Notes under the pieces: generated by a model
Told to the model about the DNA's origin: nothing
The model's database searches: none
What the model saw: only the letters and a program-made list of their open reading frames with translations
Position numbers and translations under genes: made by a program
Part shown: positions 21,942 through 55,810 of the stretch, in pieces
Layout of the letters: each line of letters opens with the position of its first letter
Position numbering within the stretch: position 1 is the stretch's first letter
Source of the DNA: Mycolicibacterium moriokaense
Lineage (GTDB): Bacteria > Actinomycetota > Actinomycetes > Mycobacteriales > Mycobacteriaceae
Assembly: GCF_010726085.1 (NCBI RefSeq)
Contig: NZ_AP022560.1
Span: forward strand, 372,001-436,000
DNA length: 64,000 bases
Reading direction: 5' to 3'

Positions 21942-21974
21942 GACGTCCTTCGGGTGGAAAAGAATGACCAAACG

Positions 21975-21996: not shown

Positions 21997-22009
21997 GTCA
22001 AAATAAGTT

Positions 22010-22571: not shown

Positions 22572-22622
22572 GGGTGCATAGACGAACGTGGGTGTGGCAC
22601 TCCGATTTGAGATGGGGATCTG

Positions 22623-24164: not shown

Positions 24165-24186
24165 GCTCTCCCCTGAGGTTTACTGC

Positions 24187-25952: not shown

Positions 25953-25953
25953 G

Positions 25954-28352: not shown

Positions 28353-28498
28353 TTCGGTGCGTCCTTTCGGGCCGTGACCGCGGTGTGGTGCAAGTCACTT
28401 GGGTACGGCCAGTGTTGGGTAACGAACGCCGGATTGGTCCCGCCGTGCGGGCCAACTCACGGCCCGATCGGGCCAGTTCTGAGGGGCGAGCGGGCCGT

Positions 28499-29791: not shown

Positions 29792-29798
29792 GAGAGTC

Positions 29799-29804
29799 AC
29801 CCTA
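29799..29804 (-). promoter_or_regulatory. Candidate -10 box for leaderless sensor-kinase mRNA
   Basis: TAGGGT on the minus strand fits TAnnnT and ends 7 bases before the GTG at 29791. No ribosome-binding sequence is present between them. Confidence 0.4.
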
Positions 29805-29861
29805 GACACGTGCGATCGCCCCAGTCGGAGCAATCTGCGGCGGCTGCCCAATCGTTTTCGC

Positions 29862-29867
29862 TACGTT
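29862..29867 (+). promoter_or_regulatory. Candidate -10 box for leaderless response-regulator mRNA
   Basis: TACGTT fits the TAnnnT -10 pattern and is followed by 6 bases and then the GTG start at 29874. With the divergent kinase promoter it fills the 82-base intergenic region. Confidence 0.4.
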
Positions 29868-29873
29868 CGGCGC

Positions 29874-32909: not shown

Positions 32910-32916
32910 CTCGCCG

Positions 32917-32980
32917 CGCCGACTGCACGCTTCTTTGCCGAGCCTGTCGGCCGATACGTACAACAAGCGTGCAGTCGGCG
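32917..32980. terminator. Long inverted repeat after the GlcD-like gene
   Basis: Perfect 16-base arms CGCCGACTGCACGCTT (32917-32932) and AAGCGTGCAGTCGGCG (32965-32980) enclose 32 bases with a nested GCCGA/TCGGC hairpin. It begins 7 bases after the stop codon. No U-tract follows, so it would be a mycobacterial stem-loop terminator or 3'-end stabiliser; it could also be a dispersed repeat. Confidence 0.6.
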
Positions 32981-33017
32981 AGAGAAAGTACTGCAGAGGG
33001 TGTCACCGGGCAGCCTC

Positions 33018-33023
33018 GATAAT
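33018..33023 (+). promoter_or_regulatory. Candidate -10 box for leaderless 33030 gene
   Basis: GATAAT at 33018-33023 is close to the consensus TATAAT and is followed by 6 bases (GGACAA) and the GTG at 33030, so the mRNA would begin at its start codon. Confidence 0.5.
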
Positions 33024-33029
33024 GGACAA

Positions 33030-35285: not shown

Positions 35286-36226
35286 CGAGAACAATCAGCA
35301 TCCTTGCGACGGTGCTCATTGCGGTGTCCGCGTGCGATAGTTCACCCCCCGAACTTCCCCCGGACTCTCCGTCGGCGATGGTCGAGGTGCTCACCGGCGA
35401 CGCGGGCAACGCCGACCTCAAAAAGCTGACGACGTACGAATGGGACGACGACGGCGCGGCAGCCGGCGCTCAGTTCGCCTGGATCGGCCAGGATGCGGGC
35501 GGTGACCCCGACGCACAGGCTACAGAGGCGGCCGCCGCGCTCGCCGAGTTCCTCATCGCCGACCACGCCGCCCTGATGGCCGTGGGTTCTGGCTTCCTCG
35601 GACTTTCGAAAGTTCCGGCCGCACAACTCAATCCCATGCTGATCAGAAGCTATGCGGCCGCGCTGGCGCCGTTCTTCGGCGACCTGGTCGGCGGGCAACA
35701 GCAGGCCTTCGACACCGTCCGCACCCAGGTGCTGGCGGACCCGTCGGCGTTGCGGAACCTGTTGTCGGTTCTGGTCGCAGACCCTGAAGCGGGGAGAACG
35801 GCCGTCGAAGCGGTGCGCGTTGCCGCCCAACGGTACGAGGACGCCGCCGCTGCGGCGCCGCCGGAAAGTGACGAGTCAGTCGCCGATCTCACCGCGGCGG
35901 GGTCGCTATTAGGCGCGGCGTTCGGCGCGGTCAAGCAGGCCGAGAGTGACATTCCGACCCGGACGAGCGGTGAGGCGCTCAACGACATGGCGGTCCGCAT
36001 CGCTTCGATTCTGGTGCGGTCGGATCCGAATCCCGCGAAGGTCAGCACATACGTGCAGAACGGCGTACTCATGACCCCGGATCAGGTCGAGCGCGCCTTC
36101 TCCAACGCCGCTATGCGGACGTACTTCCTCGACTTGCAGGACTACATCTCGACCAAGGGGTTCGGTGAGGGCCTGACTGCGTTCCAGGACGCTTTCAAGG
36201 CCACGTCCAACGAAGCCGCTCGGTAA
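35282..36226 (+). CDS. Lipoprotein sharing the C-terminal domain of the upstream WXG protein
   Basis: The 314-residue protein has a short signal peptide with lipobox VSAC, the lipidated Cys at residue 18, then an acidic Ser/Pro linker and an alanine-rich helical domain. Its end (LVRSDPNPAKVSTYV ... MRTYFLDLQDYISTKGF) aligns with the end of the preceding protein (LVRDDPNLGEMSQYV ... RRDYFLDMQEYVENRGF), so the pair arose by partial duplication. It overlaps the upstream gene by 4 bases and converges tail to tail with an EspC-like gene. A membrane-anchored partner for the upstream protein is a reasonable inference. Confidence 0.78.
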   Translation: MTRTISILATVLIAVSACDSSPPELPPDSPSAMVEVLTGDAGNADLKKLTTYEWDDDGAAAGAQFAWIGQDAGGDPDAQATEAAAALAEFLIADHAALMAVGSGFLGLSKVPAAQLNPMLIRSYAAALAPFFGDLVGGQQQAFDTVRTQVLADPSALRNLLSVLVADPEAGRTAVEAVRVAAQRYEDAAAAAPPESDESVADLTAAGSLLGAAFGAVKQAESDIPTRTSGEALNDMAVRIASILVRSDPNPAKVSTYVQNGVLMTPDQVERAFSNAAMRTYFLDLQDYISTKGFGEGLTAFQDAFKATSNEAAR

Positions 36227-36228
36227 CG

Positions 36229-36537
36229 TCAGGTCGGGATGTCGACGTCGCCGATGGCGTCGGCACCCGACGCATCCTCACCGAGATACGCGCGCGCCGC
36301 GGCGCCCAGGTTGTCGCCGTACGTGCGGACAGTCTCGATGGCGGCGGTGACCGCGGCCGCTACGCCCTGCTGTGCCTTTCGGCATGACTCCGCGGTTAGG
36401 AACTGCCCCGCCGCTGCGGCTGCCTCACCGATGGGGGTATCGGCCTGAAGGTGGTGCAACGCGTCCACGACGTCGCCGAAAGCCGTTGTCGCACTTTGTA
36501 GCACCTGGGTATTCACCCTCAATGTCTCGGCGTTCAC
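36229..36537 (-). CDS. EspC-family ESX-1 secretion-associated protein (position of espJ)
   Basis: The 102-residue, all-helical, alanine-rich protein belongs to the type VII target family represented by EspC and EspF (LRVNTQVLQSATTAFGDVVDALHHL start, helix-turn-helix, AAARAYLGEDASGADAI tail). GTG at 36537 has AGGAG 7 bases upstream. It is the last gene of the ESX-1 transcript, 18 bases after eccD1, where M. tuberculosis has espJ; it is much shorter than EspJ. Likely an ESX-1 substrate. Its stop is 2 bases from the convergent lipoprotein stop. Confidence 0.7.
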   Translation of the reverse strand: MNAETLRVNTQVLQSATTAFGDVVDALHHLQADTPIGEAAAAAGQFLTAESCRKAQQGVAAAVTAAIETVRTYGDNLGAAARAYLGEDASGADAIGDVDIPT

Positions 36538-36555
36538 GTGTCGCTCCTCTCGCGA

Positions 36556-38082
36556 TCAGAACCGCAGGTTTCTCAGTAGGTCGTAGACGCTCGCGATCCA
36601 CAGCAGCATCGGAATCACCGCCGCTATCGCCGCACCGTCGAGCAGTTCGAGGATCCGCTTGGTCACCGGCGAGACCCGCCGTACGCTGCGCGTCGCTCCG
36701 ACGACGATCAGCGCCACGACCCCCAGCGCCACGTAGACGCTGAGCACCAGCCACGCACGTTCGGGTGACCACAGGGCCAGCTTGACCATCAATCCCGTCG
36801 GGATGACCACGACCGCCGCCAGCAGCGCCCATGCGCACCACCGCTCGGTATACAGGCGGGACCGGAAAGCGCAGATCGACATCACCAGTCCGGCGACGAC
36901 CATGCTGTGCAGGAAGAAATGTCCTTCGACCACAACGCTTATCGCTCCGATCGACAGGATCAGCGCACCCGCCGTCACGAAACCGATGAGCAACCGCCTC
37001 GCCAACTGGCTGCGGGCGTGCAGCCGCGCAGCGGAATCCGGCACCGACTCGACGATCGCCTGCCACGTCGGCGATTCATGACCGTCGGGTGTGACGACGG
37101 GGTCCAGAAGTTCCTCGCTGCCCACCGTTTCGCCTGGCGCGGGAATCGGCGGCAGGGCGATCCGCGCGACCGCGACCGTCAGCTTGGCGGCGTTCGTGAC
37201 GACGATCAGGCCGAATGCGATCGCACCGGCGGGCACCCAGAACTGCCAGCCGTACCCGAAAGCGACTGCCGCTGCGGTCGCGGCGATCGATGCGACGGCC
37301 AAGAAGGCTGCCAGCTCGGCTCTCTTACGCGGTCCGCCCCGCGTGGCCAGTGTCGACAGCAGGACCACCGCCGCCGCACCCGCCGTCTGTGGTGCACCCA
37401 GCGAGTCGTAACCCTGTGGCAGCGGAATCGTCAACGCCGCCGCACCTGCGAGGGTGGGCAGCGTCGCAACCAGCAGGCTCTCCCCCATGTCGACGTTCTG
37501 GTACCGGCTGGCAGCCAACGCACTGCCACTAGCCAGTGCAACGCCGAGCACGCCAAGCGCCGCCCCCCACCACCAATCGTGGCCGCTCTGCATCCACGCG
37601 ATCATCGACATGACGGTCACGGTCACCACCGCGAACGGAATCGCCAAGGTGACAAAGCGGTTGAGGGCCCTGCGGTCGAACTCCGGCGACTCGTCGAGTA
37701 CCGCGATCGCGTCGATCACATCCTCGACCAGGGGCCGATAGCGCTCGGTTCGGCTGACCGAGACCAGTGTCAGGAGCGATCCGTCCACAACGCCGGCGTC
37801 GTCCAACGATTCGTTGAACTTCATCGGCGGCGCGCCCGGGCGCGCGAACGCCCACACCCCCTGCGCTGCGAAGTCGAACCCCGCGAGAACGTCTTTGGGT
37901 GTGTCCTCGTGTAACTCGGCCAGCACCGACACCGTCTCGTCGATGTACGTCTCGATCGGAGCCGCCGCCGGCAGCACCAGATCGGTCATCCGCCGGCCGG
38001 TCAGGATCGTCACCCGCGTGGTCGACGGCCGGCCGGGTGTCACGCCCGGTGCTACCGGTGCGGGAGCAGCGATTGCGGTCAA
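36556..38082 (-). CDS. eccD1: ESX-1 integral membrane channel component EccD1
   Basis: The 508-residue protein has an N-terminal ubiquitin-like cytosolic domain (TRVTILTGRRMTDLVLP to VDGSLLTLVSVSRTERYRPLVEDV, residues about 20-125) and about eleven membrane helices. The sequence follows M. tuberculosis EccD1 closely, including the FGYGWQFWVPAG and TNAAKLTVAVARIALPPIP loops. EccD forms the dimeric core of the inner-membrane type VII complex. The start appears to be TTG at 38082, overlapping the espI stop as TTGA. This is a rarer start that supports translational coupling. Confidence 0.95.
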   Translation of the reverse strand: MTAIAAPAPVAPGVTPGRPSTTRVTILTGRRMTDLVLPAAAPIETYIDETVSVLAELHEDTPKDVLAGFDFAAQGVWAFARPGAPPMKFNESLDDAGVVDGSLLTLVSVSRTERYRPLVEDVIDAIAVLDESPEFDRRALNRFVTLAIPFAVVTVTVMSMIAWMQSGHDWWWGAALGVLGVALASGSALAASRYQNVDMGESLLVATLPTLAGAAALTIPLPQGYDSLGAPQTAGAAAVVLLSTLATRGGPRKRAELAAFLAVASIAATAAAVAFGYGWQFWVPAGAIAFGLIVVTNAAKLTVAVARIALPPIPAPGETVGSEELLDPVVTPDGHESPTWQAIVESVPDSAARLHARSQLARRLLIGFVTAGALILSIGAISVVVEGHFFLHSMVVAGLVMSICAFRSRLYTERWCAWALLAAVVVIPTGLMVKLALWSPERAWLVLSVYVALGVVALIVVGATRSVRRVSPVTKRILELLDGAAIAAVIPMLLWIASVYDLLRNLRF

Positions 38083-39464
38083 CGGCGCTCGAGCCTGTCG
38101 AAGTCGTCGGACAGCGCCGCCGCCAACTCGACGATGCGACGCCGGAAGGCCTTGCCCAACAGGTCGAGCTGGATCTCGGTGCCGGCGGCGATGTGCTTGT
38201 CATACGGCAGCACGATGACACGGCCGGGTGGGACGTGACGCTCGAACTGCTGCACCAGATCATCGATGTCGATGTTCGGCTTACCCGGCACCACATGATT
38301 GATCACCACACATGAGCGGCCCAGCAGATCCTGATATCCGTTCTGCCGCAACCAGTCCATCGTGATCGCCGCCTGCCGCGCACCGTCGATGGACGCGCTG
38401 GCGACGATCACCAGACCCGAGACCGTCGACAACACACCGCGCGCCGCCGGCTGGAACAACCCGGCCCCGCAATCGGCGAGCACGAGGTTGTAGTAGCGCG
38501 ACACGATACCGGTGGCGCCGTTCCAATCGTCGTCGTTGAACTCGCGGCGTGCACCGCTGTAGTCCTCGGCGGACAGCACCTCGAGGTTCGAGCCGTTCAT
38601 GCTCGTATACGCACGAATGTCGTTGTACCGCGACAGTTCGTTGTCCGCGAGCAGGTCGCCGATCGTCGCCGCCGACTGCCTGCCTGCGCGATCGGCCAGA
38701 TTTCCGCCGTCCGGGTCCGCGTCGATGGCCAGGATCCGGTCGCCGCGCACCTTGCTCAACGCTGACCCCAGGGCGACGGTGATGGCGGTTTTTCCGACGC
38801 CACCCTTCAGCCCGAACACACCGATCTGGTACGAATCCCTGGCATTTCGTCGGATCCGGGTATGCAGATCCAATTCGTAGAGCTCGTCGGGCGACAGTCC
38901 CAGATTGATACGCGTCAGCACGTACAGCAGATGACGCCAGCCGCGCGCCGACGGCATCCTGACCGCCGACTTCACACCGACATGCGACAGCGCATCGATG
39001 GCGCGATGGTTGCCGATCGTCGCCGCCGACGTCGGTGCGGGCTGAATCATCCGCCCCGCGGGGTCGATCTCGGTTTGCGCGTCCGCGAAATGCTGTGAGG
39101 GTGCGGGCGCGGGTGCCGGCCTCGGCGGCGGGGTCGGCGCCGAGCGAGGCTGTTCATAACGAGCCCCGACTCCTCCGGCGGACATCGGTGTCCGCATCAT
39201 CCCGTTGGGCTGTTGCCGCGGCACCGGCCGTGCAGTGGGCATCTGCGTCGTCACCTCGCTTTGGCGCGGTGGCGGTGCGGACGTGGTTTGAGTCTGGTTC
39301 GCCGCAACCGGAATCACGGGCGATGTCAATTCACTGCGACCCGGTTCGCTGTTGGCGATCGCGGCCTGGATTGCGATGTCGCGATCGACATCGTCGTCGG
39401 CTGTGGTCAGAGCGTCCACCGACGATCCTGAAGAATGGAAAAGCCGGTCATAGTCAGCCGACAT
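38079..39464 (-). CDS. espI: ESX-1 secretion-associated ATPase-like protein EspI
   Basis: The 461-residue protein starts MSADYDRLFHS like EspI, has a Pro/Ala/Gln-rich linker (residues about 50-150) and a C-terminal ParA/MinD-like domain with Walker A GLKGGVGKT, the DADPDGGN switch and VLADCGAGLF. The region RGWRHLLYVLTRINLGLSPDELYELDLH matches EspI well. The linker is much shorter than in M. tuberculosis EspI. Known EspI limits ESX-1 secretion at low ATP. It lies 88 bases downstream of esxA and overlaps eccD1. Confidence 0.93.
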   Translation of the reverse strand: MSADYDRLFHSSGSSVDALTTADDDVDRDIAIQAAIANSEPGRSELTSPVIPVAANQTQTTSAPPPRQSEVTTQMPTARPVPRQQPNGMMRTPMSAGGVGARYEQPRSAPTPPPRPAPAPAPSQHFADAQTEIDPAGRMIQPAPTSAATIGNHRAIDALSHVGVKSAVRMPSARGWRHLLYVLTRINLGLSPDELYELDLHTRIRRNARDSYQIGVFGLKGGVGKTAITVALGSALSKVRGDRILAIDADPDGGNLADRAGRQSAATIGDLLADNELSRYNDIRAYTSMNGSNLEVLSAEDYSGARREFNDDDWNGATGIVSRYYNLVLADCGAGLFQPAARGVLSTVSGLVIVASASIDGARQAAITMDWLRQNGYQDLLGRSCVVINHVVPGKPNIDIDDLVQQFERHVPPGRVIVLPYDKHIAAGTEIQLDLLGKAFRRRIVELAAALSDDFDRLERR

Positions 39465-39552
39465 GAGTACCTCTCATAGTTGGAAGTCGAGACGCACGTG
39501 GTGGGCAGGGTTCGCCTGAGCCTGCCGCCCACCCACGCGCACCGTCGAACGG

Positions 39553-39837
39553 TCAGAACATTCCGGTGACGCCGGCCTCAGTCTGCGCCATGGACTGGCC
39601 GGCGTTGCCGATGGTGTGCGCCAGGTTGAGCAGGGCCGCGTTCAGCTCAGCAGATGTTGCATCCCAACGCATCTGGACGGCCTGGTAAGCGTCCGAACCC
39701 GTGCCTCCCCACACCGCGGCCAGGGCCGCCAGCGAGGCCTTGCCTTCGTCGAGCAGCGCATCGGTCCGCTGGACAGCCGCGCCGATCTCACCGGCACCGC
39801 CTTCGATACCCGCGAAGTTCCATACCTGTTCAGTCAT
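39553..39837 (-). CDS. esxA: ESX-1 secreted protein EsxA (ESAT-6)
   Basis: The 94-residue WXG100 protein starts [12 protein letters not shown] and keeps the WGG turn at Trp43. The end ([12 protein letters not shown]) matches ESAT-6 except for the last alanine. It pairs with EsxB as a helical heterodimer secreted by ESX-1, acting in membrane lysis in pathogens and in DNA transfer control in M. smegmatis. AGGAG lies 7 bases before the ATG. It follows esxB by 31 bases. Confidence 0.97.
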
Positions 39838-39868
39838 TGAATTCTCCTGATCTTCAGTCGATTACGGG

Positions 39869-40174
39869 CTAGTGGTTGATGTTCATCGCCGACGAGAGCG
39901 CGCTGGCCTGGTCGTCGTCGGTGGTCTGGTACTGGACGCCGCCGGTGTTGATGTTGGCGGCGATGTCGTCCAACTGCTTCGTCTGCTGCGCAGCCGCCTC
40001 GTGGAACCGGATCAGCGCCTGCTGCGCCGCGGTGCCCGCCTGCCCGACCATCTGGCTGGCGAGTGCGCCGGCGGTGCCCTCGACCTGCGCGATGACGCCT
40101 GTCAGCTCACCGGAGATTCGGCCGAAGTTCGCTGCCTCCTTGGCGAGGACAGCAACGTCTGTATTCATTGCCAT
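39869..40174 (-). CDS. esxB: ESX-1 secreted protein EsxB (CFP-10) with altered WXG motif
   Basis: The 101-residue WXG100 protein aligns with CFP-10 throughout: AKEAANFGRISGELTG, AGTAAQQALIRFHEAA, and a tail with the YxxxD secretion signal (YQTTDDD). At the position of CFP-10 Trp43 the codon is ATG, so the turn reads M42-V43-G44 instead of W-x-G. The ATG at 40174 gives the family N-terminus; the frame upstream to 40210 is not needed. It is the partner of EsxA and carries the export signal recognised by EccCb1. Confidence 0.95.
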   Translation of the reverse strand: MAMNTDVAVLAKEAANFGRISGELTGVIAQVEGTAGALASQMVGQAGTAAQQALIRFHEAAAQQTKQLDDIAANINTGGVQYQTTDDDQASALSSAMNINH

Positions 40175-40270
40175 GCTGGATACTCTTTCCTCTTCCTGTG
40201 TCCCCACCATGTGATGGCGAGTCTTTCCGGCCGGTCGGCCGGGAAGTCCGTTGTGCGACGGCTATTTCCG

Positions 40271-41554
40271 TCACCAGTCGTCGCCGTCTTCTTCGGCCAG
40301 GTCCTGCGGCAGCACGCCCGGCGCCGTTAAGCCTGTCTTCGAGTCTCCGCTTTTGGCGCGCTGGCCCATGCCTCCCATCGGCCCCATGCCGCCACCCCCC
40401 GCCCCGACGGGCGCCAGGCCCATCGCGCCTGCCCCTGCGGCTGCCCCGGCTGTGGCCGCGACCGCGTTCGTTCCCCCGATCAGGTTGGCCAGCAACGGTG
40501 TTCGTGGTGCGGTGCCGCCTGCGCCCGGCAGCGACGCTGCGCGCACCAGCCCGGCGCCGGAACCGGCGCCGGTTCCTCCAGCCAGCGGGTGGTTCGAGAG
40601 CGGGCTGGTCCCGATCAACCCCAGCTGGGCCTTGTCGGTTCCCAAGCTGCCGAACTGGCTGAACATCGAGGTCACCTGCTGCAGCGGCTGTGTGAGCTGC
40701 TGCATCGGCTGCATGACCATTTGGCCGGCCTGCTGCGGAATCTGACCAAGCGTCGATCCCAGTTGGGAAGCCATCTGCATTCCCATTTGCGCGCCCGGCT
40801 GGAGTGGCTGCCCCTGGTGAGACGCGTCGTCGGCCTTTCCCGCCTGACCTTCGGCGCGCTGGGCGGCCATGTTGCCCTGCGCGGGAGCGTTGCCCGCATT
40901 CAGCAAGGTCGACTCCATCTTCGACTGAGTGCTGACAGTGGCGATCGCTGCATTGCGTACGGCTGCCGCGGGCGCCATGGCCATCGCCTGTCCGAGTGCG
41001 GCGCTGACGACGCCCTCGCTTACACCGGGGACGACGATCGGCTTCGGCGCCGCGATCATCTCGAACATCAGGTTCAACAACGTCTCCGCCTGGTAGACAT
41101 CCATCGCCCCAGCGGCCTGGTTCCACATCCGGACGAAGTAGTCGGCTTCGTTCAAAGCGATCGGAATTGTGTTGACCCAGAAGAAGTTCGTCGCCTCGAG
41201 CACCGCGTGGGTGACGTGGTTCTGCTCGATCTCCGCCAGCGGCGGGGTGGTCGCCATCGCGAGGCTGTACGAGTTGGCCTGCGCCGTCGCCTGCAGTGCC
41301 CGCTTCATCGCCTGTGCGGACACGGTTCGCAGCCAGATGACCATGGGTATGGTGGAAGCGACGGCCCGTTCGCATGCCGATCCGCTCCACACCGATGCCA
41401 GGGCAGCAAGACTCGCCGCCAGTTCGTCGGCCTGAACCTCGAGGGAGATCGCCAGGGCTTCCCACCCCGCGGCAGCCTGCAGCATGGGGGCCGGACCCGC
41501 CCCCATCATCAGCCGCGCAGTGTTCAACTCCGGCGGCATCCCATGCCAGAACAT
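40271..41554 (-). CDS. PPE68: PPE family protein PPE68
   Basis: The 427-residue protein starts MFWHGMPPELNTARLM with the PPE triplet at residues 7-9 and a 170-residue helical PPE domain including ATNFFWVNTIPIALNEADYFVRMWNQAAGAMDVYQAET. A Gln/Gly/Met-rich region follows, with LGTDKAQLGLIGTSPLSNHPLAGG and the acidic tail ending EEDGDDW. These features match PPE68 of the ESX-1 locus. It pairs with PE35 and is escorted by EspG1. It lies 37 bases after PE35 and 96 bases before esxB. Confidence 0.95.
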   Translation of the reverse strand: MFWHGMPPELNTARLMMGAGPAPMLQAAAGWEALAISLEVQADELAASLAALASVWSGSACERAVASTIPMVIWLRTVSAQAMKRALQATAQANSYSLAMATTPPLAEIEQNHVTHAVLEATNFFWVNTIPIALNEADYFVRMWNQAAGAMDVYQAETLLNLMFEMIAAPKPIVVPGVSEGVVSAALGQAMAMAPAAAVRNAAIATVSTQSKMESTLLNAGNAPAQGNMAAQRAEGQAGKADDASHQGQPLQPGAQMGMQMASQLGSTLGQIPQQAGQMVMQPMQQLTQPLQQVTSMFSQFGSLGTDKAQLGLIGTSPLSNHPLAGGTGAGSGAGLVRAASLPGAGGTAPRTPLLANLIGGTNAVAATAGAAAGAGAMGLAPVGAGGGGMGPMGGMGQRAKSGDSKTGLTAPGVLPQDLAEEDGDDW

Positions 41555-41591
41555 CGATTACGGGTTCCTCGCGTTAGCGATCAGCGAGACG

Positions 41592-41885
41592 TCAGAAGTT
41601 GGCTGCGTTGGCGCCGTCGACCGCGGCATAGATACCGGCGATCTCCATGTACGCCGCACCCGCGCGGGACAACTCCTCCTGCGCGAACGTGTTCAGCGCC
41701 AACGCCTCGACGCCCTCCTTGGCGAACACCGCTGCCGCCTGAGCGGAAACCTCGTCGGCGCCCGCAGGTACGAGCGCGGACACCGCTGCGGAGGCGGTGG
41801 TACCGGCGGCGAGTCCCCTGACGCCGTTTGCGACTACCTGTGCGCCGATTCCGACGGCACCCGGATTGTGCTCCATGGGTTGCAT
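41592..41885 (-). CDS. PE35: PE family protein PE35
   Basis: The 97-residue protein is a short PE domain of two helices with no C-terminal extension. It starts MQPMEHNPGAVGIGAQV, comparable to MEKMSHDP of M. tuberculosis PE35, and keeps LVPAGADEVSAQAAAVFAKEG, the conserved centre. A YxxxD/E-like signal near the end (YMEIAG) is imperfect. ATG at 41885 has GGGGGA about 9 bases upstream. It forms a heterodimer with PPE68. A 151-base gap to eccCb1 may hold a promoter for the PE35-esxA part. Confidence 0.93.
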   Translation of the reverse strand: MQPMEHNPGAVGIGAQVVANGVRGLAAGTTASAAVSALVPAGADEVSAQAAAVFAKEGVEALALNTFAQEELSRAGAAYMEIAGIYAAVDGANAANF

Positions 41886-42036
41886 TGCGTTGTCCCCCAA
41901 ATTCAGTGATGTGCTTGGATATCCATTTGCGCAGCGGCCGGCGCTACCGCATCAGGAAACTTCCCCCGACCCCGACCGCCAGCGCTCTCCCCTGTTTGCT
42001 AGCGTCTCGTCAATCCTAAGTGGGCTCGAGGAGTGC

Positions 42037-43797
42037 TCAGAACACTTCTTCCTCCGGCGAATCCACATACGCCGCCTGGATGACCTCCTTCGCGTCCGGT
42101 GATACGAGAAATGCCTGGCCCGGTGGCCGGCGTTGCACCTTGATCTCGCGCGACGGGAAGTCCTGCTTCTCGCCGGAGAGGAACAGTGTGGGCGTTCCAG
42201 CGCCGTACGCACCGCCCACGAACTTGTCCATCGTCGCGCGATGCGCCTGGCTCATCTGGCAGGTCACGATGATGTGCAGACCGATATCTGCCGCAGCGGG
42301 CAGCAGCGGGAAGAGCGGCGCCATCGGGGGGACCACTCCACTGGCCGCGACGATCATGTGCCAGTCGTCGACCAACAGCACGACGTCGGGACCTCGCCAC
42401 CACGACCTTGCCCGTAATTGGGCGGTGGTGAGGTCGGGCGGTGGCAGTCGCTGTTGCAGATTGATCGCGAGCGCCTTGATGGCCTCTTCCAGCGTCGCGC
42501 TGTTGCGGTTGACCGCTCCGGCATCCAGCAGGTGGCTCTCCGGTACCGCATCGAGCAGACCGGAACGGAAGTCAGCCAACATGAACCGCACCTGGGTCGG
42601 GCTGTTGCGCGCGCAGATGGCTTGCGCCACCGCGTGCGCGATGCGTGTCTTGCCCGACTTCGGAGCTCCGAAGATCAGCAGGTGTGGAGTCATGTGCATG
42701 GGGTTGTAGGCAACCGACAAGTCGGATTCACGCACACCCAACGGCACCGTCCACCGCGTGCGGTAGTCGCTGTCCGGCCCGGGCGGGTTCGGGTCCAGTT
42801 CGTGGAGGTGTATCCGTTCCGGCAGCACCCGCACCTTCGGCGCGTGCTCCGTCGTTCGTCCGTTGATGATCCGCACCGCCTCGGACATCGCGGCCACGAG
42901 GTCGTCGACGCTGTGGACACCGTCGAGCCGCGGGACACCGATCATCAAGTGGTGCTTCTCCATCGAGACCGCGCGGCCCGGCCGGTTCTGCGGGAGCTCC
43001 CGGGTGATGCGGTCGATCTGGGTCTCGTTCACGTCGCCGAGGCGGAATTCGACCTTGGTTCCGAGATAATCGCGAATGCGTGACTTCAGCTCCGTCCATC
43101 GGGGTGTGGAAATCACGGTGTGTACGCCGAACTGCAGACCCTGCCCAGCGAGATCCTGGACCATCGGTTCGAGATCCGGGAACTCCGCAACGAACGCGGG
43201 CCAGCCGTCGATGATCATGAACACATCGCCGAACGGATCAGCGGCGGCGGGATGCTTCGGGTCCTCACGCATCTGCCTGTATGCGGCCATCGAGCCCACG
43301 CGCAGCTGCTTGAACAAGGCTTCTCGTTGCCGCAGAACGGCTTTCATCTCAGCGATGACACGATTGACCTTGTCCGGCTCCGACCGCGTCGCGACGCCAC
43401 CGACATGCGGGAGATCCTCCAGGTACAACAGGCTGCCACCGCCGAGGTCGACGCAGTAGAACTGGACCTGACGTGGCGTATGCGTCGCCGCCGCGGACAG
43501 CACGAGAGTCTGTAGGAACGTGGACTTGCCCGTCTGTGGCGCGCCGCCCACGGCGATGTTCCCGCCCGCCGAAGCGGCGTCGATACCCCAGACCTCCTGG
43601 CGGTGCCGCCGCGGCTCATCCATGATTCCGAGTCCGAAGCGCAGTGCCTGCCGTGCGCTGTCGCGCTCAACGAGTTCGTTCACCGGGGTCGGGTCGGCCA
43701 ACGGCGGTAACCACATCCGATATGCCCGGGTCTCCCCCGTTGCCAACTGGTCGAGGACGACCTCGCGCAGCACACGCTGCTCGGCTTCGGCCGTCAT
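42037..43797 (-). CDS. eccCb1: ESX-1 FtsK/SpoIIIE-type ATPase EccCb1
   Basis: The 586-residue cytosolic half of the ESX-1 motor contains two FtsK-type nucleotide-binding domains with Walker A sequences [10 protein letters not shown] (first) and [11 protein letters not shown] (second). It binds the EsxB C-terminal tail and drives secretion with EccCa1. The split of EccC into Ca and Cb halves is specific to ESX-1, which helps identify this locus. The ATG at 43797 overlaps the eccCa1 stop by 4 bases. Confidence 0.96.
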
Positions 43798-46025
43798 CGG
43801 CTCACCGCCGAGTCGAAAATGGGGGCGGCGGTGAACTGGTGGATTCGGATCCGATCCGGTCCCTGGACCCGGGCCTTCGCTTCGCCGTTGTCCTGCACCG
43901 GTGCCGTTGGCACGTAGTTGACGCCGGTGTACACGCTGTGGAACTTGACGGGGTCTTCCATGCCGACGCGGAGAAAGCCGACGCCGCTCTCCTTGTTCGT
44001 GATGTACTGCGCCTCAGGCGTTCCGATCACGGCCTTGGATTCAGCCGAACTCGTGGTCCGCAGTGCGATCCGGTAGGTGAGGTTGGGCTCGAGCTTGTCG
44101 ATACGGACGCCTCCGGTGTTGAGCGACTGCGTCGCGAGCAGCAGGTGCACCCGCAACGATCGGCCGACCCGGCAGATGCGATCGAACAGCGCGATGAAGT
44201 CGGGGTGGTTCTGCAGAAGTTCGGCGAACTCGTCAACGACGACGAAAAGCGTTGGCAACGGCGGAAGATCTGCACCGCGTTCGCGGTGCTTCTCGTACTC
44301 AGCGACTCCGGACAGCGCACCTGCGGCGCCCACCTGCATACCGGCTTGACGCAGGATGGACTGGCGACGGTCCAACTCTCCCGTCAGCACCTCGCCCATC
44401 CGGCTGACGAGTTCTGCCTCTTCCTCCATGTTGGTTACAACCGCGGCGGTGTGCGGCAACTTCTCCATGCCCAGGAACGTCGACCCACCCTTGAAGTCGG
44501 TGAGAAGCAGGTTGATCTGATCCGGGTGGTGGGTGGCGGCCAGCGACAAGATCAGCGTGCGCAGGAACTCAGACTTTCCGGAACCCGTTGTACCAATCAG
44601 CATCCCGTGTGGGCCAGCGCCGAACTCCGCCCCCTCTTTGATGTCTAGATACATGATGTCGCCGGTCTTGAGTTCGTGTCCGAACGGGATGCGCAGCCTG
44701 TCCCGGTCGGTGTCGGTGAACATCCGCCACCGGTTGGGCGTCACCTCTTCGAGGGTCTGCGCTCCGACCAACTGGTGCCATTCGGTGGCCACCTTCTTCT
44801 GCACCCGCACGCTCTTGTCGATGATCGTGCCGGTGATGGACCAGCCGGCCAGCTTGCGGGCGATACGGGCTGCCTGGTCCGGTGTCATGCGGTCCGAAAC
44901 CGAAGTGACGAGGCGGAACGTCTGATTGGGCAACCGGTCGTCGGCGGTGCCGTCCGCGTCCACACGGATGCGGTACGCCGATCCGCGATGGTTGCCGAGC
45001 GTGATGACGGTAACGCCCGCACGGCCGTCGACCGGAAATCCCGCCCTGCCACCGGACAGATCGATGACGACGACGTACGGTCCGCTCGGGGTGGCGTCGG
45101 GGGTGTGCGGGCCACGGGCGGTCAGGTCGCTCAACCCGTCGGGTCGGGTGAACACCATCCGCGTCGGGCCGGCGACGTCGGTATCCGTCTGGTGTGCCAC
45201 GTGGGGCAGCCATTTGAGCCAGGCCCAGTTCGGATCCTCCGGATTGTCCGTGAGCACCCGAATTTGCAACAGGTCCGGCGGGTGGAACACCGCGAGGTGG
45301 CAGATCATGGCGGTAAGGAGGCTTGCGGCGCCGTCGGGATCGCCGCCGACCGCGATGGTTGGAAATGTGCGCAGCTGCACCAACTTCGGACAGTCGTGGA
45401 TCAATCCGTGGGTACGCAGGAACTTGGTGACCCACATGTGGCTGACCGGCTCGAGATGCGGCTGCGGAGCCCCTTGCGGCCCGGCCAGCTCGCCGCCGAC
45501 CGCGGGCTTCAGCAGGCGGTCGACGGCGGGCTCGCTACCGAGGCCGATCCGCACGGCGGAGAAGAAGTCGGCGTTGGTGGGTCGCGACCACTGCCGGTTG
45601 GTCCCGATGATGGACAGCAGATCGTCGGGATGCGGTGCGTGGTAGTTGAAGAACGTCACCTGCGCGGATGCCGACGACGTCACCCTGGTCCGAAGTCCCG
45701 CGAGGTAGCGCAGGTACTCCTTGCGGTCGGCGTTGATCTCGGGTACCCGCTTGCCGCCGGGCCCACCGCCCGCCATGAACCCGACGGTCGCCATCACCAT
45801 CATCAGCGGCATCATCAGCATGTACGGCGACAGCTGCCGGATGCCGGTGAAGATCATGATCGCGATCATCCCGAGCATGCCGCCGCCCATGACCCACGGC
45901 AGCGCCTTCTGCAGACCCGACGGTGGGATCTCGACCCCGAGGTCGTCGGGTGGCGTCACGTTGATCTCGCCGGGTGTCAGGCGCGGGCCCCGCTTGATGA
46001 TCGGGGTGAACTTCTTGGTGGTCAT
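43794..46025 (-). CDS. eccCa1: ESX-1 membrane ATPase component EccCa1
   Basis: The 743-residue protein starts [16 protein letters not shown], then has two membrane helices (about residues 40-85, [18 protein letters not shown] and [15 protein letters not shown]), a DUF-like ATPase domain and an FtsK domain with Walker A GTTGSGKS and the following [11 protein letters not shown]. It is the membrane half of the split EccC motor. ATG at 46025 overlaps the eccB1 stop by 4 bases; the frame further upstream runs inside eccB1. Confidence 0.96.
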
Positions 46026-47491
46026 CCGCCACCGCCGGTACTGACCGTCACGGAGTGGGAGCCGTCGGCGACCTTGCGCGGGTTCGGGTTTGGCGGCAGT
46101 GTGTCGTGCTCGATCAGCGCTGCCTGCTTGGACAGCACCGGGCCGTCGACCAGCAGTCCGACCACCTGCCATGGCGCGGTCATCGGGGCGCTCAGGCCGA
46201 TGGTGCCGCCCGTCTGCTCGTCGGGCAGGCCGTAGCGAACACCCTGCGGATCGATGTAGTACAGGCTTTCGCCGTACCGCGGGTCAGGCGCTTGCAGCCG
46301 GATGTACTTGCCGCCGTCGAGGTAAACCGTTGCGTCGCCGCCGATCTGATCGATTCCCGAGCTCATCGACGACGCTGCGATCGGCAGGTGGCGGCCGGTG
46401 ATGATCGTCGTCTTCGGGGCCTGATCGCCTGGCTCGCGCTGCCACGTCCAGCACAGGGTCGGGGCATCCTCCCGCGCGAGGATCGTCAACGGTTGATCCG
46501 GCAGCGGTGAGACGAACACCTGCTCGGTGATCCTGGCGACGGTGCTGGCCTCGACAGGGGGCGGGGTGACGAGCCCGAAAGAATTGGTGGAACGCAGCGC
46601 CGCCGCGGTGGTGTCGTTGATCCGCGCCACGCCGTCGGCCAGAACGACGAAGTGTTGGTCACCACCCTCCGTCAGGGCCTTGAACACCGCGCCGATGACC
46701 AGATTCGGCGGCAGGCCAACGGTATTCGGATCGCCGTATCGGGGGATCGCGGGAAGCCGCCACGGGCCAGCGTTTGGCAGGGCGTTGAACAGGCCCTCCG
46801 AGATCGGGGTCGCCTTCGAGGTCACGGGTATGCCCACGGCTGAGGTCAGCGCGCGGTCGGCGAGGTCGACGTCATGTCGCCCTGTCTCGGTCACCAGCCA
46901 GGTGTCGTTCTCGAAGCTCACCAGCACGCCCTGGTCCGGCTGCATCGGACCCACGGAGGCGTCGGGCAGGATCGGCTGCGCGAGCACTGCTGTGTTGACT
47001 GTCGGGGCGACACTCTCCGGCTTGGTCACGGTGTCACACAGCGTCCACATCGAGTTGGCGCCGCCGACGGGAGTGGCATAGGGCGCACCTGGAATGCCGA
47101 TCGGCTGCCCCTTGGCCAGCCGGTTCAGCTCGTCGGACTTCACGGCGACCGGAGTACCCGCGTTACCGAGGATCAGGCGGGCGGACGTCAGGTTGTATAC
47201 GGGTCGTAGTTGATCGGCGCCGGGGATCACGACATAGAGCTGGTTGGTGGTGCGGTCGACGAGAAGTGTGTCACTGCCACGCTTTCCGAGCGGCTTGAAG
47301 TAGGCCAGCAGCGCCGCACCCAGGCAGGCCAGCACGGCGATGACGACGCCGGCCGACACCGCGCGGCTGTAGAACTGCAGCGGATCGTCGAACATCCGGG
47401 TATCGCGCCGGACAATCGCGTGCTCGACCCTGCGCAGCAGAAACCGCCAACCACTGACCTGCACCTTGGTGGTGAGCCGGAAGTTCGACAT
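46022..47491 (-). CDS. eccB1: ESX-1 core complex protein EccB1
   Basis: The 489-residue protein starts [33 protein letters not shown], typical of EccB, with one membrane helix ([21 protein letters not shown], about residues 47-67) and a large periplasmic repeat domain containing [15 protein letters not shown] and the single disulphide pair expected from Cys in TLCDTV and PTLCWTW. EccB is a core part of the ESX membrane complex. It follows eccA1's start region by gene order and has its stop overlapping eccCa1. Confidence 0.96.
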
Positions 47492-47494
47492 CGC

Positions 47495-49216
47495 CTACTC
47501 GCCGATGCTCAGCCGGTTGTGTACGGCGGTGATGGCCTTGGCCATGTCATCGCCGTTGATCTCGCTCAGCTGCTCGACGTCGAGGCTGTCAAAATCCGCC
47601 GACCTGGCCAGCCGCATGTCCCGGTTCTGCTCGCCGGCCTCCACCAGTTGGCGGGCGTACCGGCCATTGCCCGCGATGTCCAAAGCGGGCTTGCCGTTCA
47701 GCGCCCGCTCGCTCAACAGGGTCGCCGCCTCGAGCACTCGCTTGACGGCATCGTCATCGAGGGCCGAATCATTGCTCTGTGCAATCACTTTCGCGATATC
47801 AACGATCTCATCGGGCAGATACGAATCGAATTCGATCCTGGTAGCGAAGCGCGAGCGCAGGCCGTCGTTGGATTCGAGCAGCCGGTCGATGTCGGAGCTG
47901 TAGCCGGCGATGATCACGACGAGGCGGTCGCGATCGTTCTCCATGCGGGCGAGCAGCGTGTCCAGCGCCTCGGTGCCGAACGGGTCCGCACGGCCGTCAC
48001 GCTCCTGCACCAGGGTGTACGCCTCGTCGATGAACAGCACGCCGCCGACGGCACGGTCGATGGTCCGACTGGTCTTCACAGCCGACTGACCTTCGTACTC
48101 GGCGACGAAATCCTTACGTGACGACTCGATCAACCTGGGCTCGCTGATCACACCGAGCCCAGTGAGGATGTTGGCCACTATGCGCGCGATCGTCGTCTTA
48201 CCGGTACCGGGCGGACCGGCGAAGATCATGTGTTTGGACGTCTGCGCGACCTTCATGCCACGCGCCGCGCGGACCTTCGCAATCTGCGTGGCCGCTCGGT
48301 AGGCCTCGATCTGCTCCTTGACCCGGGTCAGGCCGATCTGGCGGTCCAGTTCCGCCTGCGCCGCGGCAAGCAACCGCTCGCGGCCCGAATTGTCGGCCTC
48401 CACACTGGTGACATCCCATGGATCTCTGCGGGAGGCGATCTTCTCGGCGGTGGTGGTCGCAATCCGATAGGTGGGATCTTTAAGTGCCGCGGCGACTTTG
48501 GGCGCTGGGTGGGTGGCCTGTAACCATTCCAGGAGCGCCACGGCCGCTTCCTCGTTGCCCTGTCCGCGACGTGTCATCGCGAGGTGCCACGCGATGGCGG
48601 GCGCGCATGCCTCACCGGCAGGCGACGAGTTCGACTCGGTCAACCGGCGTTCGGCCTCCGTGAACAGCCCCAGGTTGGCGGCCGCCACACCATGCGCGAC
48701 GCCCGCCGCTGCGGCCAAGAAGTTGTCGGGCCACCCGGCGGCACCCTTGACCTCATCCATGACGTCGGTCCAGCGCTCTGCCGCCCCGTAGATGACCGCC
48801 TTAACCCATGCCACCAAATGCTCTGCGCCGGTGGCAGACACATCGTCGAGTGCCTCCATGGCGTCGGTGAAGTTGCCGACCGCGGCCTCGTGCACGGCGA
48901 AGCCCATCGTGATAGCCAGCGGTGAGTTGATGGGGTAGGTGATGTCGCCGAACTGGCCGCCGATCGGAACCCTGGCGCTGATGCTGTTCATCGAGATCTC
49001 TGCAGCGCTGGCGAGCTGCCCGAAATTCGACCGCGAATACCACGCGCGAAACAGCGTGACCCGGTCGGTGTCACCACAGCGGATTCGTCCCACCCATGCG
49101 TCACAGGCGGTTTCGTCCATGGACGTGATCTCGGAGAAGATCTCGTACGACCGCGCGGCGGAGCTGGGCAGCATCCCGACCGCACTTCCAAAAAGGCTGG
49201 TGAGGTGATCAGACAT
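47495..49216 (-). CDS. eccA1: ESX-1 AAA+ ATPase EccA1
   Basis: The 573-residue protein has the same length as M. tuberculosis EccA1. An N-terminal TPR-like half (MSDHLTSLFGSAVGMLPSSAARS, CDAWVGRIRCGDTDRVTLFRAWY) is followed by a CbxX-type AAA+ domain with Walker A GPPGTGKTT near residue 335 and Walker B VLFIDEAYTLVQ. EccA is a cytosolic ATPase proposed to release PE/PPE or Esp substrates from EspG. ATG at 49216 overlaps the espH end by 8 bases; a longer frame upstream was rejected. Confidence 0.96.
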   Translation of the reverse strand: MSDHLTSLFGSAVGMLPSSAARSYEIFSEITSMDETACDAWVGRIRCGDTDRVTLFRAWYSRSNFGQLASAAEISMNSISARVPIGGQFGDITYPINSPLAITMGFAVHEAAVGNFTDAMEALDDVSATGAEHLVAWVKAVIYGAAERWTDVMDEVKGAAGWPDNFLAAAAGVAHGVAAANLGLFTEAERRLTESNSSPAGEACAPAIAWHLAMTRRGQGNEEAAVALLEWLQATHPAPKVAAALKDPTYRIATTTAEKIASRRDPWDVTSVEADNSGRERLLAAAQAELDRQIGLTRVKEQIEAYRAATQIAKVRAARGMKVAQTSKHMIFAGPPGTGKTTIARIVANILTGLGVISEPRLIESSRKDFVAEYEGQSAVKTSRTIDRAVGGVLFIDEAYTLVQERDGRADPFGTEALDTLLARMENDRDRLVVIIAGYSSDIDRLLESNDGLRSRFATRIEFDSYLPDEIVDIAKVIAQSNDSALDDDAVKRVLEAATLLSERALNGKPALDIAGNGRYARQLVEAGEQNRDMRLARSADFDSLDVEQLSEINGDDMAKAITAVHNRLSIGE

Positions 49217-49625
49217 GATCGCCCGAATACCGTGTCGCGAAGACGTGTGCGCGCGCTGTTCGGACCTGTTCCGGTGTCGGCAGGTCCAGGTCACGAGTGA
49301 GGAAGTCGCGGGTGGCCGCGTCGTCGTGACCCTGCTCCCGCATGCCGTCGAGCATGAACGTATATTGCGCCGACTTCGCCTCTTGAGTGGCAAGGCCTGC
49401 GATGACGACGATCTCGTCGGCGAGTTCCTGCTCCGTCAAGTCGGTGACTCCAGACCCCAACTCGATCCGTTTGACCCGGCCGTCCAGGAGGACCGTAACC
49501 GCCACGGTGCCAGGAGGATTGGTCACGGTGAATACAGGCACAGGCGCTTCGTCATCCGTGTTCGCACCGGGAGGGGAGAAGTCGAGAGCAGTCAGGTCAT
49601 CAGTCGCTGTGTCGTATTTCCTCAC
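49209..49625 (-). CDS. espH: ESX-1 secretion-associated protein EspH
   Basis: The 138-residue YbaB/EbfC-fold-like protein resembles EspH: LTALDFSPPG near the start, VFTVTNPPGTVAVTVLLDGRVKRIEL, LADEIVVIAGLATQEAKSAQYTFM and an end LDLPTPEQVRTARAHVFATRY. It is shorter at the N-terminus than M. tuberculosis EspH. GTG at 49625 overlaps the espG1 stop as GTGA; ATG at 49652 is the alternative. EspH is thought to be a chaperone for the EspE/EspF pair; here EspF-like is present but EspE is not in the window. Confidence 0.88.
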   Translation of the reverse strand: MRKYDTATDDLTALDFSPPGANTDDEAPVPVFTVTNPPGTVAVTVLLDGRVKRIELGSGVTDLTEQELADEIVVIAGLATQEAKSAQYTFMLDGMREQGHDDAATRDFLTRDLDLPTPEQVRTARAHVFATRYSGDHV

Positions 49626-50464
49626 TGAGACGCGACTTTCTCGTCGAACCACGAGCCCGAGGGGAGGAAGCCGATCAAGCCGTCGAGCGCGCGCTTCAGG
49701 TTCTCTGGACTGCCAGGCAGAAAGCTGCCGTACAGCTCGCCGTTCACGCGGCGTGGTATCGACACGATGCGGCCGTGCCGGGAGTCGAGCACCCCGGCCG
49801 CGACATCGGCTTGCGTGAACGTGCCACCGGAATGCCGTTCGACAGCGGTGATCTCGACCCAGCTCGCTGGGTCGGCGATGATGTCAGCGTAGGCACGCGC
49901 GGAGGTCGGTGCGATGCCGTACTTCAGCAGCCGCTCTGCGTCGCGACATTCCCCTAACTCGTTGGCGACTCCTGTCAGTGGTTCGACATCGGCAGGGGTG
50001 TTGGTGCCCAGAACGGTGTACACCATGCCTGCCAGCCCGACCTGCGGGGCGACTCGTTGCAGCACCAGCATGTCGCCGTCGCGCGCGGCGACCACATGCC
50101 GGTTCGCCTTGCGGCATACGACGAAGCGGATCATCTTGCCGCCCACATCGCGACGCCACCAGCGGCCCTCAAGAGTCCGGTCGGGGCGGCTGAGGGTGTC
50201 GACCATCGCGGCAACCTCAGGATGGGGCTGACCGAACACATCCAAAACGCCCTGCGCTGTCAGATCCCGCGCCACCTGCTCCCAGACGAGGTCGCGCAAC
50301 TCCGGCTGGGGAATGTTGAGGCGAATGCCGAGTGTGGTCGGAAACTCCGACTGGCCCAGGCGATCTGCGATGACGAGCATCCCGTCGATCGTGACCTCGA
50401 CGCCGACGACGTCATCGATATGCGTTTCGTCGGGTCGCACTGTATGCGTCGTGCTGATGGTCAT
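49622..50464 (-). CDS. espG1: ESX-1 PE/PPE chaperone EspG1
   Basis: The 280-residue EspG family protein contains VVGVEVTIDGMLVIADRLGQSEFPTTLGIRLN, the GRWWRRDVGGKMIRFVV strand region and FTQADVAAGVLDSRHGRIVSIPR. EspG1 binds the PPE68-PE35 pair in the cytosol and keeps it soluble for ESX-1. ATG at 50464 overlaps the upstream EspC/EspF-like gene by 4 bases (ATGA), and its own stop overlaps espH. Confidence 0.92.
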   Translation of the reverse strand: MTISTTHTVRPDETHIDDVVGVEVTIDGMLVIADRLGQSEFPTTLGIRLNIPQPELRDLVWEQVARDLTAQGVLDVFGQPHPEVAAMVDTLSRPDRTLEGRWWRRDVGGKMIRFVVCRKANRHVVAARDGDMLVLQRVAPQVGLAGMVYTVLGTNTPADVEPLTGVANELGECRDAERLLKYGIAPTSARAYADIIADPASWVEITAVERHSGGTFTQADVAAGVLDSRHGRIVSIPRRVNGELYGSFLPGSPENLKRALDGLIGFLPSGSWFDEKVASQ

Positions 50465-50790
50465 GCCAGCCGCACCTGTCCATCCAGCGTGTGGCCCATT
50501 GCGTCATCCGTGTCGTCGTAGAGGTCGGCCGCGTGCGCCAATCCGCGGCCCAGTTCGTCTGAGGCCACGGCCATCGCGGTTGCGGCGCTTCGTCGCGCGG
50601 CCATCGCGTCGCTGAGGGCATCGGCGGTCGCCGACGCGATGCCCCCGTGGGTGTTACGCACCGCGGTGTCGACGCCTTCGACCGCAAGAGTCGCGGACCT
50701 GAGTTCGTCGGCGGCACTTGCCTGCCGAGAGCTCAGCTCGTTCAGATGCGTCGTCGTGACGCGCAAGTCACCGGACTCTCGCAAGCTCAC
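50461..50790 (-). CDS. EspC/EspF-family ESX-1 secretion-associated protein (espF position)
   Basis: The 109-residue helical hairpin protein matches the EspC/EspF family: LRVTTTHLNELSSRQASAADELRSA, a turn NTHGGIASAT (compare THGPYC/THGSFT in EspC/EspF) and an acidic tail ADLYDDTDDAMG. It is the first gene of the ESX-1 transcript and overlaps espG1 by 4 bases, as espF precedes espG1 in M. tuberculosis. It is likely an ESX-1 substrate. The start is GTG at 50790; GTG at 50760 is possible. The usual partner gene espE is missing upstream. Confidence 0.82.
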   Translation of the reverse strand: MSLRESGDLRVTTTHLNELSSRQASAADELRSATLAVEGVDTAVRNTHGGIASATADALSDAMAARRSAATAMAVASDELGRGLAHAADLYDDTDDAMGHTLDGQVRLA

Positions 50791-51226
50791 GTCGACGAAC
50801 TCGCCGACGATTGTCGTTGCTCACCGACCTGCCGTTCTTTGCCAGAACGCATGCGCATGCTGGTGGTCCCCCCTCTGCCTTCCCCTCGGCTCGGTCGACC
50901 CTATCAGCGTCTCGACACCACCGGCGTCACCAATTTTTCCGCTGGCCGGACCAGGTCATTCGCCTGTCCCAGCTATTGACGCATGCGTCGATAGCTGCTT
51001 GTCCAGCAGCTTGTCCAGCTGCTCAGCTAAGCGCGCATTCGAATTGGCGCGGGTACGGCCGGTGCGGCTTCACACCCGCCCCATGGGCAACATCCGCGAG
51101 CCTCGGCCACCGTCACGTGACGTTGTCGATATGCCTTGTCACCGGTGTCTATGCGCATCGCGGTGTTTGCCATCCCGGCGATTTGTGTGCAATCGCGAGC
51201 GCTCAGCGCTCCTAAACGCACACAAA
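50791..51226. other. 436-base intergenic region upstream of the ESX-1 operon
   Basis: No convincing gene was found. It holds a 28-base near-perfect palindrome (50970-50997), a 12-base tandem direct repeat beside it, a gene-end palindrome (51180-51226) and presumably the promoter for espF through eccCb1. Codon-level and RBS evidence for the small frames here is lacking. Confidence 0.7.
50970..51020. repeat. 28-base palindrome and tandem 12-mers upstream of ESX-1
   Basis: CAGCTATtGACGCA (50970-50983) pairs with TGCGTCgATAGCTG (50984-50997), 13 of 14 positions complementary, with no spacer. Directly next are GCTTGTCCAGCA (50997-51008) and GCTTGTCCAGCT (51009-51020). The block lies 180-230 bases upstream of the espF-like start and could be an operator for ESX-1 control. 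Confidence 0.6.
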
Positions 51227-51228
51227 TC
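51180..51228. terminator. Gene-end palindromic element, copy 1
   Basis: GATTTGTGTGC (51180-51190) pairs with GCACACAAATC (51218-51228), enclosing a second perfect hairpin GAGCGCT-C-AGCGCTC (51197-51211). It overlaps the last bases of the glycosyltransferase gene. A related copy lies at 58556-58608 after ino1. Likely a terminator or a mobile palindromic repeat that serves as one. Confidence 0.65.
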
Positions 51229-55383: not shown

Positions 55384-55810
55384 TGGCCGTGCGCGCACGA
55401 CTGCGCGCGGTCTGAGTACGCCTCGGCGTCCGCGACCCCTTCGGTGGCGGCACGGCCCCAAGCACGTACGACTTGACCAGGTGATTCCAGCTGCAGGTTC
55501 GGCATACCTCCACCACGTGTACCGAAAACTCGTCGTAGCGGGTTGCCAGCAGGACCAACTCCTCGGCGGTGCGCGCCGATCCGGATACGGCGCCCAGGTG
55601 GTCGCCGAACACCCACGACACCAGGGTGAGCTGCTCCTTGCGGCAGATCGGGCACGTCACCGAACTGGGCTTCCCGTGGAACTTCGCGGCGCGCAGCAGG
55701 TAGGGGTTGGCATCGCAGACCTCCGAGACGCCCGTGCGTCCCGAGTAGACCTCCGCCAGCAGGGACCGTCGCCGAAGCGCGTAGTCCACCACCTGTCGCT
55801 GCAACCGCAC
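55376..55810 (-). CDS. DUF5318-type zinc-ribbon-like protein (Rv0049 type)
   Basis: The 144-residue protein has two CxxC pairs, TCPIC and CRTC, about 50 residues apart, forming a probable zinc site, and a basic C-terminal tail (KGSRTPRRTQTARSRAR). It begins MRLQRQVVDYALRRRSLLAEVYSGR with a GTG at 55810. It is first in the operon with ponA1 and the glycosyltransferase, as Rv0049 is with Rv0050. A regulatory or nucleic-acid-binding role in envelope synthesis is possible but unproven. Confidence 0.82.
   Translation of the reverse strand: MRLQRQVVDYALRRRSLLAEVYSGRTGVSEVCDANPYLLRAAKFHGKPSSVTCPICRKEQLTLVSWVFGDHLGAVSGSARTAEELVLLATRYDEFSVHVVEVCRTCSWNHLVKSYVLGAVPPPKGSRTPRRTQTARSRARTASE

Follow-up and report, generated by a model that had tools for sequence, protein, structure and literature searches.

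A single ESX-1 secretion locus in Mycolicibacterium moriokaense, very probably divided into three chromosomal pieces by origin-spanning inversions

The ESX-1 secretion locus of Mycobacterium tuberculosis comprises, in order, espF-espG1-espH-eccA1-eccB1-eccCa1-eccCb1-PE35-PPE68-esxB-esxA-espI-eccD1, espJ/espK-type cargo, and the convergent genes espL-espB-eccE1-mycP1. Mycolicibacterium moriokaense encodes the same components, and their relative order and orientation agree with this, but here the locus is divided into three pieces of the chromosome that together extend over 354 kb, an EspE-like gene is located in the cargo and not beside espF, and extra EspC-like, lipoprotein and WXG-TPR (WXG100 plus TPR) genes are present. 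The stretch analyzed (the window) comprises 64,000 nucleotides, C1:372001-436000 of the single contig of 6,225,779 bases; C1 denotes coordinates on the contig, the feature list uses window positions, and G and L labels denote genomes of relatives, G000 being this genome. In the intact loci of G081, G013, G152, G191 and G076, the two halves likewise meet at a seam between eccD1 and espL, but they are 2-10 kb apart and a ptsH-like gene lies beside mycP1. The seam of G081 and G013 holds EspC-like, transmembrane (TM) and EspK genes, plus an EspJ-like (G081) or EspE-like (G013) gene.

That ESX-1 substrates can be encoded far from the main locus is already known from espACD-type distal operons, on which PMC8217490 and PMC6343904 have passages. 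Such operons supply additional substrates, whereas in M. moriokaense the membrane-machine genes eccE1 and mycP1 themselves are remote; a split ESX-1 is not described in the open-access titles and abstract openings surveyed, nor in the cited passages of these two papers.

One ESX-1 was found in M. moriokaense; it looks incomplete locally but has counterparts of all six absent genes on the same contig. Three inversions, all of them across the replication origin (dnaA at C1:465613), very probably carried off the other two pieces, and the system looks incomplete in the window because these inversions moved the remaining genes 70-260 kb away. The lack of eccE1, mycP1, espB, espK, espL and espE stated by an earlier sequence-only reading of the window thus holds for the neighborhood of the core and not for the genome, in which a search located eccE1, mycP1, espB and espE elsewhere on the contig (C1:329498-334105 and C1:678092-683345). 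The first of these segments, 71 kb from the core, is mycP1-eccE1-espB-espL on the plus strand, each an open frame (448, 465, 488 and 110 amino acids (aa), the last an EspL-like YbaB protein). EspB carries the domains PF18625 and PF21856 and also matches the solved EspB. The mycosin at C1:329.7 kb scores 766 bits to a solved MycP1 chain, its top match among mycosins of known structure, and 341 to mycosin-5, which identifies it by sequence as MycP1 itself. The EccE at C1:330.9 kb exceeds the family cut-off (EccE and MycP1 span C1:329498-332238); sequence comparison links it to no protein of solved structure, and it is assigned to the ESX-1 type by its linkage to mycP1 and espB. The second segment, 255 kb away, encodes an EspE-like protein (398 aa), EspK (737 aa), a membrane protein (375 aa) and an EspJ-like protein (260 aa), and directly adjoins an alpha-amylase-family gene (treS) and a maltokinase gene. 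It contains the sole EspA/EspE-family domain found in the genome (C1:678932-679174). The EspK label comes from a search with the C-terminal 268 residues (470-737), some homologues of which are named EspK/EccK; the EspJ-like and membrane-protein labels derive from similarity to the seam genes of G081 and a reading of the sequence.

The piece in the window (33000-50790) runs from espF to eccD1 and further includes the EspC-like, lipoprotein and WXG100/TPR genes. The features are as follows:

31041-32909, plus strand: FAD-linked oxidase (Pfam PF02913/PF01565)
32910-32999, no strand: inversion 2 breakpoint, where the FAD-oxidase meets the WXG100-TPR protein; identical junction in G080
33000-35285, plus strand: WXG100 + TPR_23 protein, 761 aa (PF23275 7e-47; PF06013 7e-5, below cut-off)
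35282-36226, plus strand: predicted lipoprotein, 314 aa (N-terminus by reading; PF23275 6e-5, below cut-off)
36229-36537, minus strand: EspC-like small protein, 102 aa (no Pfam match)
36556-38082, minus strand: eccD1 (TIGR03920, 421 bits)
38079-39464, minus strand: espI, P-loop ATPase (NF047907 29.0 bits, just below the cut-off of 30; CbiA domain)
39553-39837, minus strand: esxA, WXG100 (TIGR03930, PF06013; name by position)
39869-40210, minus strand: esxB, WXG100 (TIGR03930, PF06013; name by position)
40271-41554, minus strand: PPE68 (PF00823; name by position)
41592-41900, minus strand: PE35 (PF00934; name by position)
42037-43797, minus strand: eccCb1 (TIGR03925, 670 bits)
43794-46172, minus strand: eccCa1 open reading frame (ORF) (TIGR03924, 771 bits, matched from residue 73 on; the real start probably lies more downstream)
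46022-47491, minus strand: eccB1 (TIGR03919, 512 bits)
47495-49393, minus strand: eccA1 ORF (TIGR03922, 721 bits, from residue 86; true start probably ~49138)
49209-49652, minus strand: espH-position protein, 147 aa (weak YbaB match below cut-off, nothing else)
49622-50464, minus strand: espG1 (PF14011 1e-51)
50461-50790, minus strand: espF-like, EspC family (PF10824 8e-21)
50791-51226, no strand: inversion 3 breakpoint, where espF meets Rv0051; G080 has this junction as well
51227-53230, minus strand: Rv0051 orthologue, GT87 family (PF09594; ORF too long at its 5' end; the inverted origin segment begins with this gene)
52882-55461, minus strand: ponA1 orthologue (transglycosylase and transpeptidase domains; ORF overlong)

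The fourteen named ESX-1 genes from espF-like to EspC-like, all on the minus strand (36229-50790), agree with those listed in the sequence-only reading, as judged from family profiles and gene positions. EccB, EccCa, EccCb and EccD exceed the cut-offs of TIGR03919, 03924, 03925 and 03920, and two WXG100 proteins, a PE and a PPE protein are recognized by their profiles. All 10 loci compared have a homologue of the espH-position protein between espG1 and eccA1; the EspC-like protein is 41% identical to a 104-aa seam protein of the intact relative G081 and adjoins eccD1 in all five clade members. The core was rightly said to abut ponA1-Rv0051: espF is followed by the Rv0051 and ponA1 orthologues. 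On its other side, what had been read as a convergent unrelated module turned out to be locus cargo, as a homologue of the WXG100-TPR protein sits in the eccD1-side ESX-1 cargo of relatives; some homologues are named EspA/EspE family T7SS effectors, and the protein is a putative EspA/EspE-like substrate. The predicted lipoprotein is homologous to its C-terminal part (blastp, 25% over 321 positions, E 4e-18). Beside eccD1 of G182, a WXG100 protein with an alpha/beta-hydrolase domain is accompanied by a small downstream gene; both pairs could consist of an effector and a surface or immunity partner.

Comparison with relatives revealed both reciprocal junctions of each of the three inversions, with dnaA inside the inverted segments, which bears out the suggestion of the sequence-only reading that a rearrangement near the origin had split the locus. 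The ancestral order, as seen in relatives, would have been Y-[espF..eccD1, EspC-like/lipoprotein/WXG-TPR/EspE-like/EspK/TM/EspJ][espL espB eccE1 mycP1]-ptsH-ptsI-pirin, Y being a neighbor so labeled here. Inversion 1, placed first as the oldest, would have broken EspJ/espL on one arm and treS/PNPOx on the other. The other two would have followed, in either order: inversion 2 would have separated the WXG-TPR gene from the EspE-like gene within the cargo and, at its opposite end, the FAD-oxidase from the acyl-CoA-dehydrogenase genes of the other arm, and inversion 3 would have broken Rv0051/rpsF and espF/Y, joining espF to Rv0051.

For inversion 1, treS adjoins PNPOx in four of five outgroup stretches (G132, G064, G191, G011). 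EspJ-like adjoins treS in the three clade members examined for it (G124, G169, G145) and in this genome, and espL adjoins PNPOx in five of five clade members, the junction in this genome being C1:334105/334179; G169, G145 and G124 have both junctions. Inversion 1 is common to all five clade members examined; a split order shared by all close relatives, which the sequence-only reading had named as grounds for refuting its finding, was thus found for the first split. The arrangement of G124 fits a single inversion (eccE1 module at 4461 kb, ABC 4451-4458, block 4404-4411, Rv0051 4318, dnaA 4273, eccD1 4216, treS 4208), and the cargo of G169 is unbroken: eccD1, EspC-like, lipoprotein, WXG-TPR (matched in its N-terminal part only), EspE-like, EspK, TM, EspJ, treS, mak. 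For inversion 2, FAD-oxidase is followed by acyl-CoA dehydrogenase genes in the two outgroups compared (G132, G011) and adjoins WXG-TPR in this genome and in G080, and the EspE-like gene here lies on the dehydrogenase side with one 254-aa gene between. The left-arm block C1:334179-404909, which now keeps the two halves of ESX-1 apart, has this oxidase at its inner end; homologues of the oxidase (G132:5209120, G011:1097333) are found across the origin, close to genes for acyl-CoA dehydrogenases. For inversion 3, Rv0051-rpsF is found in 16 of 20 stretches of relatives and Y beside espF/espG1 in 11 of 12; this genome has espF-Rv0051 and Y-rpsF-ssb-rpsR-rplI-dnaB (C1:509286/509441) instead, and this exchange is why the ESX-1 of the window abuts ponA1-Rv0051. 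The inverted segments span the origin, since in each of the seven relatives checked dnaA is flanked by Rv0051 on one side and the ESX-1 core on the other (G124, G064, G011 and G191 by position; G101, G132 and G081 as single contigs with dnaA at base 1).

The sequence-only reading had also offered a second, partial ESX-1 copy borrowing EccE and MycP from another system. Local absence of eccE1 and mycP1 fits such a paralogue, but the genome contains three EccB loci (24.7 kb, 418 kb in the window, 5.411 Mb), three genuine mycosins over cut-off (5.410 Mb, 329.7 kb, 14.4 kb) and two genuine EccE (C1:330.9 kb and 13.6 kb); moreover, the distant mycosin is by its score MycP1, followed by eccE1 and espB, and the two halves are neighbors, 1.7-18.1 kb apart, in 65 of the 80 genomes in which the distance could be measured. 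Profile searches with EccE, MycP and EccB found no second ESX-1 on the 6.2-Mb contig, and the paralogue is extremely improbable. The locus at C1:13-28 kb was considered as ESX-2 and dropped; its gene order and single-chain EccC fit ESX-3. The contig is an untrimmed circular chromosome: its ends, C1:1-15783 and C1:6209910-6225779, are the same sequence (98.8% identity, 183 gap positions) and would yield false duplicate or frameshifted genes, including a false broken mycP. Because the start is thus repeated, EccE and MycP matches at 6.2236-6.2255 Mb duplicate those at C1:13-16 kb, and a mycP1 pseudogene at the contig end was ruled out. The many gaps between these ends betray an imperfectly polished assembly, to which the split itself might be ascribed; however, the separate assembly of G080 has the same junctions at the three places compared (espL/PNPOx, WXG-TPR/FAD-oxidase and espF/Rv0051), and three further genomes (G169, G145, G124) have both junctions of inversion 1, so that an error of this kind is scarcely credible.

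Another explanation is that a mobile island of 71 kb entered the locus, with espL on one side and the WXG-TPR gene on the other, which would account for the halves being separated by one block and for the unchanged orientations of the flanking genes. It is very unlikely: in the parts searched (C1:335.2-343.0 and 385.0-404.9 kb), pieces of the block have homologues across the origin in G132, G101, G011 and G064, which keep their order interleaved with other genes; the PNPOx and FAD-oxidase genes at the block ends are also across the origin in those outgroups examined; and both reciprocal junctions were found, with G124 fitting one simple inversion. Several observations do sit awkwardly with the inversion scenario. 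G081 has PNPOx and maltokinase but no treS match between them; Rv0051 has also lost rpsF as its neighbor in G145 and G124, so that further changes occurred there; and some parts of the 71-kb block match best elsewhere in the outgroups, which means that the block also gained genes. No long repeats were detected at the four breakpoints tested, and mediation by repeats was discarded, matches between different breakpoint regions being at most 33 positions long. EspB diverges fast, with ratios of nonsynonymous to synonymous substitution (dN/dS) of 0.28-0.45 in five comparisons, which could reflect relaxed constraint or adaptation. Three inversions are the simplest reading, though transpositions could yield the same junctions.

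In the same five comparisons, dN/dS was 0.09-0.12 for eccE1, 0.09-0.10 for mycP1 and 0.11-0.16 for eccD1; purifying selection thus acts on eccE1 and mycP1 with much the same strength as on eccD1. The codon comparison of WXG-TPR covers 172 codons in G169 and 162 in G124, and the Rv0051 values, derived from an incorrect frame, were set aside. Contiguity of ESX-1 genes is usual but not required for function, and ESX membrane complexes assemble from proteins, so that separate gene addresses are no obstacle. From the sequence data we infer that the split machine still works; its proteins would assemble in the membrane although their genes are transcribed at separate places. Transcription of the core and of the mycP1-to-espL unit converges on the seam, so that both would keep their upstream regions when the locus breaks there.

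To see how common the split is, we surveyed 198 genomes of the genus, drawn evenly and including this one. A close EccE1 (E <= 1e-60) was present in 108 and a close EccD1 (E <= 1e-80) in 106, all 106 of which also have EccE1; the two genomes with EccE1 alone are assemblies 70% and 91% complete. EccD1 was matched only in pieces in G044, G086 and G144, possibly due to pseudogenes or assembly errors, and G126 matches EccE1 only in part. The two genes are on different contigs in 26 of the 106 genomes; in the remaining 80 their distance is 1.7-18.1 kb in 65 and 50-243 kb in 15, and none of these 80 falls between 18.1 and 50.3 kb. In the individually retrieved ESX-1 loci of the 15 split genomes, the core is unbroken to eccD1: in 11 genomes this holds from espG1 onwards, and in the other 4 from eccA1/eccB1, the first genes of the locus in view. 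A sister clade has a different split at the same seam, and two more genomes have other splits. Between the ESX-1 halves of G182 (G182:C1:75-123 kb) are two ORF pairs with alike N-termini and transposase-like appearance; this looks like another way of widening the same seam. In L040 (Mycobacterium sp. GA-1285), the core is reduced to espF-espG1-espI-eccD1, with espG1 abutting espI; the genes from eccA1 to esxA, expected in between, were not found there.

Elsewhere in this genome, dnaB (C1:511586-514666) carries an intein with a LAGLIDADG domain. A segment of ~9.1 kb (window 21383-30515), with genes named mostly by reading as acyl-CoA synthetase, aldehyde and alcohol dehydrogenase, cytochrome P450-like protein and histidine kinase, is absent at the same place in the close relative G080, and most of it is present elsewhere in G152 at ~80% identity; it is probably a gain in this strain.

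The case is of interest for the repeated breakage of one and the same seam, with both halves retained. We lean slightly towards regarding ESX-1 as modular, with one tolerated breaking point at the convergent seam between eccD1 plus cargo and espL-espB-eccE1-mycP1, which in rapidly growing mycobacteria would have undergone no fewer than three, and probably four, independent breaks, espG1/eccB1-eccD1 being spared in the 15 split genomes; since both halves are kept, the machine would be maintained in trans, while the cargo cassette could become detached and follow its own evolutionary course. An annotation that goes by loci would score the ESX-1 of this clade as broken or partial, and ESX-1 completeness is used in arguments on the virulence and conjugation of non-tuberculous mycobacteria. 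The split is natural material for asking which ESX-1 parts need co-transcription, and it indicates that origin-spanning inversions can cut a near-origin secretion locus without loss of its parts.

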